42,767 bases of DNA from Deltaproteobacteria bacterium (GTDB taxonomy: Bacteria > Desulfobacterota > Desulfobulbia > Desulfobulbales > SURF-16). The stretch spans positions 5,034 to 47,800 of the forward strand of contig JACQYM010000109.1 in NCBI GenBank assembly GCA_016208225.1, given 5' to 3'. A program made the translations under genes and the position numbers. Under the pieces are notes generated by a model. It searched no databases and was not told the origin of the DNA. It was given only the letters and a program-made list of their open reading frames with translations. This document shows, in pieces, positions 11,344 through 15,071 of this stretch (positions within the stretch are counted from its first letter, which is position 1; the number at the start of each line of letters is the position of its first letter).

Positions 11344-11496
11344 GTCCGTTCTGCCACACCAAACAAATAGCTTTATATTATCAATATGTTGCCTGGTAAA
11401 TGCCATGTGCCGACGCCTGTGGCACGTCTGCTGCATTTCTTTAAATTAAAAAATAGAAATGCAGCACCTCTTGAAAGGGACAAAGGGGGGACGGTC

Positions 11497-11715
11497 ATGA
11501 AAAAGAGAACTGAAAACAAGGCATGCACCGCAGTCATCGACAGATACGATTATGATGAAGATATTGCTGAAGCAGCAAGTCATGTCGGGACGGGCACAAT
11601 TTTTAATCTCTGCGCGCTGATCGGCGCCTGGGGGGTTACCTGTCTGGGCAGCGCCGTCGTCCAGTTCGGCATCGCTACAATGGTGAAAGGCTGGTTTGCC
11701 GGCATCACGGGGTAA
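11497..11715 (+). CDS. Small hypothetical protein (72 aa) with hydrophobic C-terminal half
   Basis: MKKRTENKACTAVIDRYDYDEDIAEAASHVGTGTIFNLCALIGAWGVTCLGSAVVQFGIATMVKGWFAGITG; G/A-rich sequence upstream (aaggggggacggtcATG). Confidence 0.6.
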   Translation: MKKRTENKACTAVIDRYDYDEDIAEAASHVGTGTIFNLCALIGAWGVTCLGSAVVQFGIATMVKGWFAGITG

Positions 11716-11746
11716 AGATCTGGAAACGGCTTCGTAAAAAGTCTTT

Positions 11747-11839
11747 TTTCACCACAGAGCACACAGAGATCACAGAGAAATAATATTTAGTACAGCTAGT
11801 TATCTCTGTGGGCTCTGGGCGCTCCGTGGTTGATTTTCA
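11747..11839. repeat. Nonamer-based palindromic repeat, copy 1
   Basis: accacagag cacacagag atcacagag ... ctctgtggg ctctgggcg ctccgtggt. Confidence 0.9.
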
Positions 11840-11870
11840 GTTCCTGCGAGTTCGTCACATATGCTTAAAG

Positions 11871-11891
11871 CACCCCGTGGGGTGTTTTTTT
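11871..11891 (+). terminator. Short GC hairpin plus T-run
   Basis: caccc-cgtg-gggtg followed by ttttttt. Confidence 0.55.
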
Positions 11892-11933
11892 CACTCCTCA
11901 CTCCTTACTCCTTACTCCTTACTCTTCACTCTC
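11892..11933. repeat. Period-7 tandem array (CACTCCT x2, TACTCCT x2, TACTCTT, CACTCTC)
   Basis: Read directly, just downstream of rodA's 3' end. Confidence 0.92.
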
Positions 11934-11950
11934 ACTTTACCTGCTCAAGC

Positions 11951-13063
11951 TTACCCCGGCACCTGATAGCGCCGCATGCGGACGCTGATCAGGATGCCGA
12001 TGCCGGCCATGGTGGTGATCAGCGATGAGCCGCCGTAGCTGAACAGGGGCAGCGGCATGCCGACCACGGGCAGCATGCCCATGACCATGGCCAGATTGAT
12101 GAATGCCTGCCAGAAGATAAGCGACACCACGCCGATGCTGAGCAGGGTGCCGAATTTGTCCCGGGAGGAGACGGCGCTGTTCAGCCCCCAGAGGATGAGA
12201 AAAAAATAGATGAAGAGGAACAGGGACGAGCCGATAAAGCCGAATTCCTCGGCCCAGATGGAAAAGGCGAAATCCGTGTGCCGTTCCGGCAGAAAGTCGA
12301 GATGGCCCTGGGTACCCTCCAGATAGCCTTTGCCGGAGAACAGACCGCTGCCCACCGCGATCTTGGATTGCATGATATGATAGCCGGTTTTCAGGGGATC
12401 GGCCTCGGGGTTCAGAAAGGTTTCAATGCGCTGGCGCTGGTATGGTTTGAGGATGAATTTCCAGGCAATGGGGACAAGGGAGGCGCATGTTCCCAGCAGG
12501 ATGCTCAATGTCTGCCATTTGAGTTTGACAAAAAGGGTCATGGAGACAAAGATAAAGCCCAGCATGAGCGCCGTGCCCAGATCCGGCTGTTTCAGGATGA
12601 GCAGAAAGGGCACCAGTGTCAGGGTAATGGGAATGGCCAGTTCCATGAGGGTGAAGCCCTTGCCGGTGTCCTTGCGGGAGTAATAGCTCGCCAGGGTGAT
12701 GACCAGCATCAGTTTGGCCGGCTCGGAGGGCTGCAGGTTAAAAAAACCGAGATTGATCCAGCGCTGCGCCCCTGACAGGGTTTTGCCCATGATGAGGGCA
12801 TAGAGCAGCAGCAGACAGATGAGCCCGTACATCGGATAATTCCAGGCCATGAAAAGACGGTAATCGACGCTGATGATGGCCAGGACCAGTCCCATGCCCA
12901 TGATGAAATAGTAGAGCTGCTTGATGTAGACCGGGGTGCCCGGGGGTTTGTCCGGGTAGATGGCGCTGTAGAGGTTCATCAGGCACATGGTGGCAATGAG
13001 CGCCAGCCAGATGAGGATGATCCAGTCAAAATGCTGCAGAAGTCGTCTGTCAAAGCGTATCAT
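11951..13063 (-). CDS. rodA: Rod shape-determining SEDS protein RodA
   Basis: GAQRWINLGFFNLQPSEPAKLMLVI, KQPDLGTALM, FLPERHTDFAFSIWAEEFGFIGS, GMPLPLFSYGGSSLI. Confidence 0.96.
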   Translation of the reverse strand: MIRFDRRLLQHFDWIILIWLALIATMCLMNLYSAIYPDKPPGTPVYIKQLYYFIMGMGLVLAIISVDYRLFMAWNYPMYGLICLLLLYALIMGKTLSGAQRWINLGFFNLQPSEPAKLMLVITLASYYSRKDTGKGFTLMELAIPITLTLVPFLLILKQPDLGTALMLGFIFVSMTLFVKLKWQTLSILLGTCASLVPIAWKFILKPYQRQRIETFLNPEADPLKTGYHIMQSKIAVGSGLFSGKGYLEGTQGHLDFLPERHTDFAFSIWAEEFGFIGSSLFLFIYFFLILWGLNSAVSSRDKFGTLLSIGVVSLIFWQAFINLAMVMGMLPVVGMPLPLFSYGGSSLITTMAGIGILISVRMRRYQVPG

Positions 13064-13100
13064 GATATCTCGAAATTAATAACTGCGCAGGTCGATAGTA

Positions 13101-13195
13101 TGAAAATTAACCACAGAGAGCACAGAGCCCACAGAGATGATGAATCGTAAATAAAAAATATTTTCTCTGTGATCTCTGTGTGCTCTGTGGTGAAA
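13101..13195. repeat. Nonamer-based palindromic repeat, copy 2 (inverted relative to copy 1), between mrdA and rodA
   Basis: accacagag agcacagag cccacagag ... ctctgtgat ctctgtgtg ctctgtggt; reverse complement of the right arm is identical over 27 bp to the left arm of copy 1. Confidence 0.92.
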
Positions 13196-13202
13196 CCGAA
13201 GT

Positions 13203-15071
13203 TTACGGTGTCGGCGCATCCCCGTTTTTCTCTTTAAAATACATTTCCAGTATCTGTTTGGCAATGGGCGCCGCCACCGAGCCGCCGTGGCCGCTGTGTT
13301 CCACCAGCACGGTCACGGCGATTTCCGGTTTTTCCGCCGGGGCAAAGCAGGTGAACCAGGCGTGGTCCTTGTATTTCCGGGGCAGCTGCGACTCCGGGAT
13401 GCTCTTGAACTTGGCCATGCGCACAACCTGGGCGGTTCCGGTTTTGCCGCCCACAATAATGTTTTCCATTTTAGCGCTGGTGGCGGTGCCGTGTCTGGTG
13501 TTCACGGCATCGATCAGCCCTCTGACGATAAACTCCCGATCCTGGGCCGAACCATTAACCTTGCCGAGCAGCTTGGGCTCGATTTTTTTCATGGTGGAGC
13601 CGTCCGGGTCCTTGATTGCCTCAATAATCTGCGGCTTGTAGAGCTTGCCGCCATTGACGATGGCTGCGGTCATGCGGCAGATCTGCAGCGGGGTCGCCAG
13701 ATTGAAACCCTGGCCGATGGCCACGGACAGTGTTTCGCCGTCCTGCCACTTCTCGTTTTTTTTCATCTTTTTCCAGGCAGAGGTCGGGACCAGTCCCGGT
13801 TTTTCATGCTCCAGCTCAATGCCCGTTTTTTTGCCCAGGCCAAGACTCTCCGCATAGGCGGCAAGGCGGTCCACGCCGACCTTCTGTCCCACCTGGTAAA
13901 AATAGACGTCGCAGGATTCGGAAAGGGCGCGCTGCAGGCTGATTGCCCCGTGCCCTGATTTTTTCCAGCAGCCGTAACGGCGATTATACATATGGAGTCC
14001 GCCGTTGCAGTAGAAAGTGGTCTGCGGGTTGATGACCTTTTCCGACAGGCCGGCCAGGGCGGTGATGATTTTGTAGGTTGAGCCCGGCGGATACTGGCCC
14101 TGCACCGATTTGTCGACCAGGGTATGCAGGGGATCGTTGAGCAGCTCCTGCCATACCCTGGTCGAGATGCCGCCGATGAACTCGTCAAGCTTGAGCGAGG
14201 GGGCGCTGGCAATGGCCAGCAGTTTCCCGGTGTTGACATCCATGGCCACCGCTGCTCCCGCGATCCCTTCCATCGCCTTTTCCGCGGTGTTCTGCAGATC
14301 GATATCCAGGGTCAGCTGCAGATCGTTGCCCGGCATCGGGTCCTGGTGCTGGAGGACCTGCTGTTCAAAGCCGAGGACATCCACCTCAAGGTAGCGGAAT
14401 CCTTTCTCGCCCCGCAGTTCATTTTCAAAAATCTTTTCAATACCCATTTTGCCGATCGGATCACCGCCCTGGTATTTGTTGTATTTGAGGGCCTCAAGCT
14501 CGGTTTTGCTGATCTGTCCCAGATAACCGATGAGGTGCGATGCCATATTGCCGTAAAGGTAATCGCGGCTCGGCACCGCCTCCACCCGCACGCCCGGCAG
14601 TTCAAGGTGATGATTCTCGATGTAGACCAGGGTTTTCCAGTCAATATCCTCTTTGATCAGGATGGGCATATAGCGGGGCTGCCCGGCTGCCTCGCGGATG
14701 CTGGTCAGCAGATTGGAAATATCTTCATTTAATATCTGGGAGAGACGTTTGGTCACCTCATCCGGGTTGGGTGCGTCCTCCTTGGTCCAGAGCAGATTGA
14801 AATAGGGGCGGTTGGTAATGATGACCCGGCCGAACCGGTCAAGGATATTGCCGCGCGGCGCCTGGGTCTGCTGGATGCGGATCCGGTTGTTTTCGGAAAG
14901 TTTTACATACTCTTCCCCGTTTTTGATCTGCAGAAACCAGAGGCGGGCGACCAGCAGGGCGATAAAAACGATGATGACGATGGTGGCGATTTCCACCCGT
15001 TTTTTGAGGACAATAAGCTCCTCTTCATCAATTTTATGTATTTTTTCGACGGCGCGGCGGATTCTGGGCAT
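13203..15071 (-). CDS. mrdA: Penicillin-binding protein 2
   Basis: RGNILDRFGRVIITNRPYF, SVQGQYPPGSTYKIITALAGL, GKTGTAQVV, HAWFTCFAPAEKPEIAVTVLVEHSGHGG. Confidence 0.96.
   Translation of the reverse strand: MPRIRRAVEKIHKIDEEELIVLKKRVEIATIVIIVFIALLVARLWFLQIKNGEEYVKLSENNRIRIQQTQAPRGNILDRFGRVIITNRPYFNLLWTKEDAPNPDEVTKRLSQILNEDISNLLTSIREAAGQPRYMPILIKEDIDWKTLVYIENHHLELPGVRVEAVPSRDYLYGNMASHLIGYLGQISKTELEALKYNKYQGGDPIGKMGIEKIFENELRGEKGFRYLEVDVLGFEQQVLQHQDPMPGNDLQLTLDIDLQNTAEKAMEGIAGAAVAMDVNTGKLLAIASAPSLKLDEFIGGISTRVWQELLNDPLHTLVDKSVQGQYPPGSTYKIITALAGLSEKVINPQTTFYCNGGLHMYNRRYGCWKKSGHGAISLQRALSESCDVYFYQVGQKVGVDRLAAYAESLGLGKKTGIELEHEKPGLVPTSAWKKMKKNEKWQDGETLSVAIGQGFNLATPLQICRMTAAIVNGGKLYKPQIIEAIKDPDGSTMKKIEPKLLGKVNGSAQDREFIVRGLIDAVNTRHGTATSAKMENIIVGGKTGTAQVVRMAKFKSIPESQLPRKYKDHAWFTCFAPAEKPEIAVTVLVEHSGHGGSVAAPIAKQILEMYFKEKNGDAPTP

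Follow-up and report, generated by a model that had tools for sequence, protein, structure and literature searches.

The two palindromes that flank rodA in the window (by which we mean the whole stretch of 42,767 nucleotides analysed here) are copies of a MITE, abundant in its genome, that has TIRs and a 4-bp target duplication. Our preferred reading, to which we assign a probability of roughly 85%, is that they arrived as independent, non-autonomous cut-and-paste insertions of a unit of ~134 bp with a gene-less inverted-array core, that they are passengers at this locus, and that the hairpin contributed by copy 2 is probably cut by RNase III and does not act as a switch.

An earlier note on this DNA had described two inverted nonamer palindromes on either side of rodA, and both are indeed present (Table 1). 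Copy 2 lies inside the mrdA–rodA junction (mrdA stop at 13203, rodA start at 13063), while copy 1 lies past the 3′ end of rodA, convergent with a small ORF (11386–11715); the arms reported as shared, the left of copy 1 and the right of copy 2, are 93% complementary across 42 nt (11747–11788 against 13154–13195). Within the window, the nonamer-pair pattern CACAGAGNNCACAGAG gave 8 matches at up to two mismatches against 0.15 expected. Neither copy is flanked by a target duplication, and for copy 1, where the flanking 4 bp were read from the sequence, this led us to regard it as an old insertion. The TIRs of copy 2 are eroded around an intact core, with remnants TTTACG near 13202–13207 and TGAAAATTAACC near 13101–13112, and direct reading of the overlap places the mrdA stop codon within the eroded TIR at the right end of this copy, where it may be the TAA of TCGTAAAAA.

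Table 1. Features of the rodA–mrdA region, in window coordinates.
Feature	Position	Strand	Basis and remarks
MITE copy 1	11724..11857	+	TIR match at 11724 with 3 mismatches, full architecture; right end ...CAGTTCCTGCGAGTTCGTCA at 11857
Nonamer palindrome core, copy 1	11747..11828	.	Motif matches, arm alignment; nonamers start at 11753, 11762 and 11771, inverse nonamers 11804–11828
rodA (370 aa)	11951..13063	-	ORF; homologues in 23/23 relatives searched
MITE copy 2	13083..13218	-	mrdA–rodA junction; ends set by consensus alignment; opposite orientation to copy 1
Nonamer palindrome core, copy 2	13107..13195	.	Motif matches, arm alignment, fold; nonamers start at 13112, 13121 and 13130, inverse nonamers 13165–13189; predicted hairpin in mrdA–rodA transcript
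mrdA (PBP2-like, 622 aa)	13203..15071	-	ORF; name from earlier note and translation

The source genome, a fragmented assembly of 3.43 Mb in 412 contigs and 88% complete, holds many more such elements. The nonamer-pair pattern had 310 exact matches genome-wide on both strands and none for the reversed control, the TIR pattern had 208 matches at up to two mismatches compared to 4 for its control, and BLAST with copy 1 returned 42 scored matches at 73–100% identity. Dividing match counts by matches per element gives an estimate of ~80–110 copies, mostly intergenic. Alignment of the copies showed that conservation extends past the nonamers, to an element of ~134 bp (listed copies 119–160 bp, most of them 133–137 bp) in which both ends read TGATG(A/G)N(C/T)TCGTAAAAA; the outer TIRs are TGATGnnnTCGTAAAAAGTC, and the TIR TGATGRNYTCGTAAAAA is present at both ends. 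From one end to the other, the order is TIR, GTCTTTTTTCACC, three nonamers, an AT-rich centre, three inverse nonamers, GGTTAATTTTCAGT and TIR. The nonamer cores described in the earlier note are real, but the unit does not end with them, since the outer TIRs are its true ends, and the two copies beside rodA do not form a pair of their own but belong to a large family.

Target duplication is of fixed length. Across all fetched loci, 24 of 58 short TIR pairs carry an exact 4-bp duplication, where 1.8 would be expected, and in the source genome 9 of 23 copies do so, against 0.86 in shuffled pairings; no comparable excess was seen at 2 or 3 bp. TIRs together with an exact 4-bp duplication identify the element as a MITE, and it is short, non-coding, dispersed, multicopy and mostly intergenic. 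Copy-by-copy statistics come from ~40 regions selected for carrying elements or TIRs, with genes taken as greedy long ORFs; of the 68 elements in them, 58 fall outside ORFs, and those between two genes stand in tandem, convergent and divergent contexts (31, 14 and 9) in the same proportions as the background (162, 66 and 58). This is the random dispersed repeat with no bias that the earlier note had itself set against its own idea.

The same ends recur among relatives. An exact TIR was found in 43 of the 77 genomes of the order, the source genome included (control matches 0), and many of the TIR-bearing elements there are other MITEs of 97–206 bp with unrelated interiors; loci L088 (2615–2778), L135, L137, L144 and L151 hold such families, with TGATGnnnTCGTAAAAAGTC ends. 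The full palindrome, with the same TIRs and often with the duplication, was found in 11 of the 77 genomes, which belong to six genera in two families. The TIR can thus occur apart from the nonamer core. A search of about 2.03 Mb of loci turned up no autonomous element with these TIRs, so that we can only infer the transposase, which would be of the DDE type and would move the MITE in trans. Seven viral contigs examined for a carrier of the TIR held short elements or lone ends only. A 2.96-kb TIR pair at L134 was considered as an autonomous carrier and rejected, as it merely brackets cydAB-like genes and has no matching duplication.

The core also travels far beyond this order. When one of its arms was scanned against GTDB, the matches listed included Anaerolineales and other Chloroflexi, Planctomycetes, Acidobacteria, Chlamydiae, Latescibacterota, Omnitrophota, several proteobacterial classes and Desulfobacterota. 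The outer contexts differ among genomes, the core standing in unrelated MITE chassis; in Anaerolineales UBA5796, for instance, it lies in an element of 141–149 bp that ends GGCTCTT...AAGAGCC (L161, L190, L194, L208–L210, L229 and L232); three of eight copies carry an exact 8-bp duplication, and we take the ends to resemble the ISL3 family. The nonamer core belongs to a repeat class that is widespread and, it seems, undescribed; a partial literature search found no pertinent mention of these nonamers or TIRs.

A possible origin of the core is suggested by arrays around genes of the GxxExxY family, which family scans identify as TIGR04256 and PF13366, within the PD-(D/E)XK superfamily. Of 198 genomes sampled from the phylum, 69 carry such genes, in up to ten copies, and most of the 30 best-scoring members are flanked on at least one side by nonamer-like arrays, whose unit varies. 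We used a motif-free test in which the 400 bp upstream were aligned to the 400 bp downstream after reverse complementation of the latter, an arm-versus-arm design chosen over lag autocorrelation, which is too strict for three-unit arrays. At these loci, which are the best-scoring family members rather than a random sample, true pairs had a median score of 37 and mismatched pairs one of 20, and at a distance of 700 bp both medians were down to 19; the flanks of rodA scored 19 against 20 in the same test. GxxExxY genes were present in 11 of 14 genomes picked for carrying the CACAGAG arm, and a CACAGAG array brackets the gene in several of these, from Rhodocyclales (L347), Rhodospirillaceae (L352), Pirellulales (L353), Limnoglobus roseus (L354) and Chlamydiae (L355). 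Among the 77 genomes of the order, the gene accompanies the palindrome in 9 of 11 genomes and occurs in 15 of the 66 others (Fisher p = 3e-4, uncorrected for shared ancestry). In a congener (G002), it lies between AACCACAGAG arrays; there, as at the other GxxExxY loci examined, no TGATG TIR was found.

The window copies are inverted arrays of CACRRAG-type nonamers, and their arms are those found around GxxExxY genes, the congener's among them. Since such arrays bracket GxxExxY genes in other genomes, the core is best read as a gene-less form of an inverted-array unit that is carried by MITEs; the copies hold no gene between their arms and no GxxExxY gene was found in the source genome, so the window palindrome would be at most a gene-less derivative. 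The proteins themselves (L279–L308, L346–L359) carry a full set of motifs: in 34 aligned sequences the D, E and K of D...ExK and the Q of QxxxY are invariant, and the Y of QxxxY, a motif that marks RecB/Cas4-type nucleases, is present in 33. This suggests an active RecB/Cas4-type nuclease. PDB searches with GxxExxY gave no convincing match, and a partial search of the literature found no published link between GxxExxY/PDDEXK_3 and inverted repeats.

Genes for IVP four-helix proteins (PF05635) are likewise bracketed, in their case by period-7 arrays: in their flanks, lag 7 averages 17.7 of 24, compared to 11–13 at all other lags except 14, and the GxxExxY flanks show a weak peak at lag 9 (13.6). 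The source genome has three IVP genes (C16:1879–2193, C12:100–414 and C325:1713–2024), the first of which (L321) stands between inverted AGGCAAT heptamer arrays. In the window, tandem heptamers (ACTCCTCACTCCTTACTCCTTACTCC) at 11893–11925 adjoin the 3′ end of rodA, with the period of 7 of the kind that flanks IVP genes elsewhere, and a GAGCCATGAGCC heptamer-type repeat lies at about 2305 beside a cytochrome-like gene. In the 23S intervening sequence of Coxiella, which RNase III excises, tandem heptamers precede the S23 ORF and the termini are inverted repeats (PMC4990558).

We tentatively propose, with the balance of probability tipped slightly against us, that inverted short-period arrays (nonamers with a GxxExxY PD-(D/E)XK nuclease, heptamers with an IVP four-helix protein) are widespread, undescribed selfish units in which the cargo acts on its own array and keeps or copies both arms in concert, and that gene-less palindromes are their satellites, spread by capture in unrelated MITEs. 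If so, the pattern may explain, through two uncharacterised gene families, several 'junk' repeat families of environmental genomes (the CACAGAG, CACGAAG and CGCAAAG nonamers and the AGTCCAA and TAGCAGT heptamers), there would be a concrete candidate for the substrate of the GxxExxY nuclease, and the old question of the origin and spread of 23S rRNA intervening sequences would become directly testable. It is this class of array and cargo that should interest the specialist; the rodA locus is ordinary and the elements there are passengers.

Could the palindrome nevertheless be a functional RNA or DNA site, such as a processing signal or a protein-binding array, that selection keeps at genes such as mrdA and rodA? 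The palindromes fold into strong predicted RNA hairpins (z-scores from -5.2 to -7.7), in agreement with the large hairpin that the earlier note had placed inside a cell-shape operon; the core is conserved across phyla; and one relative of another genus (G010; L260) has a separate, shorter CACAGAG nonamer palindrome in the same mrdA–rodA junction. Against this, the junction is palindrome-free in 7 of 8 relatives examined, including members of the same genus, the gene contexts of the element match the background, an Rfam search of the window returned two tRNAs only and no family for the palindromes, and no terminator-like site was found at the copies. We consider a selected site improbable. Under the MITE reading, copy 2 would simply add a long hairpin between mrdA and rodA in the message, and by analogy with 23S rRNA intervening sequences this hairpin is probably cut by RNase III rather than working as a switch.

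Less probable still, with only a slim chance of being right, is that the element is a REP-, BIME- or REPIN-type repeat spread by a RAYT, that is, a Y1 HUH transposase of the kind the earlier note had raised. Its many palindromic, intergenic copies would suit such an origin, as would the four Y1_Tnp genes of the source genome and the situation in Alcanivorax, where copies of the core stand among GTAGGAGCG-type palindromes that resemble REPs. However, no RAYT was found beside the element, and none of the four Y1_Tnp loci is flanked by element or TIR, one of them having a single isolated CACRGAG heptamer. Y1 transposition makes no target duplication, and the 4-bp duplication of the element thus weakens this explanation further.

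That rodA itself forms an invertible or excisable segment, switched or removed by recombination between the inverted copies, is scarcely credible and finds nothing in its favour beyond the inverted geometry and complementarity of the arms, since in 8 of 8 relatives (four congeners and four from other genera of the family) rodA adjoins mrdA and reads in the same direction, at a junction mostly free of palindromes, chance alone should place about four pairs of neighbours within 1.4 kb of each other among ~100 copies in 3.43 Mb (an estimate), the gene context is that of the background, and an inversion would presumably part rodA, an essential gene of cell shape, from its operon.

Among known systems, the MITE resembles REP, BIME and REPIN sequences in forming many intergenic palindromes without a gene, and differs from REP/RAYT systems in its 4-bp duplication, its long TIRs and the lack of an adjacent Y1 transposase. 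With MITEs (reviewed in PMC10969869) it shares short length, non-coding character, TIRs, target duplication and many intergenic copies; it departs from them in that its autonomous partner was not found and in a nonamer-palindrome core common to unrelated MITE chassis. A term search of PMC4692102, which deals with heptameric intergenic repeats in Xanthomonas and Nostoc, found nothing on nonamers, 23S, S23 or four-helix proteins; those repeats have period 7, unlike ours, and are similar in being short-period intergenic arrays, some of them in inverted pairs. Compared to 23S rRNA intervening sequences (PMC4990558), the window copies lie outside rRNA, between genes of protein operons, have no ORF and have a period of 9, but they share the inverted repeats that give rise to a long RNA stem, which is here a predicted one.
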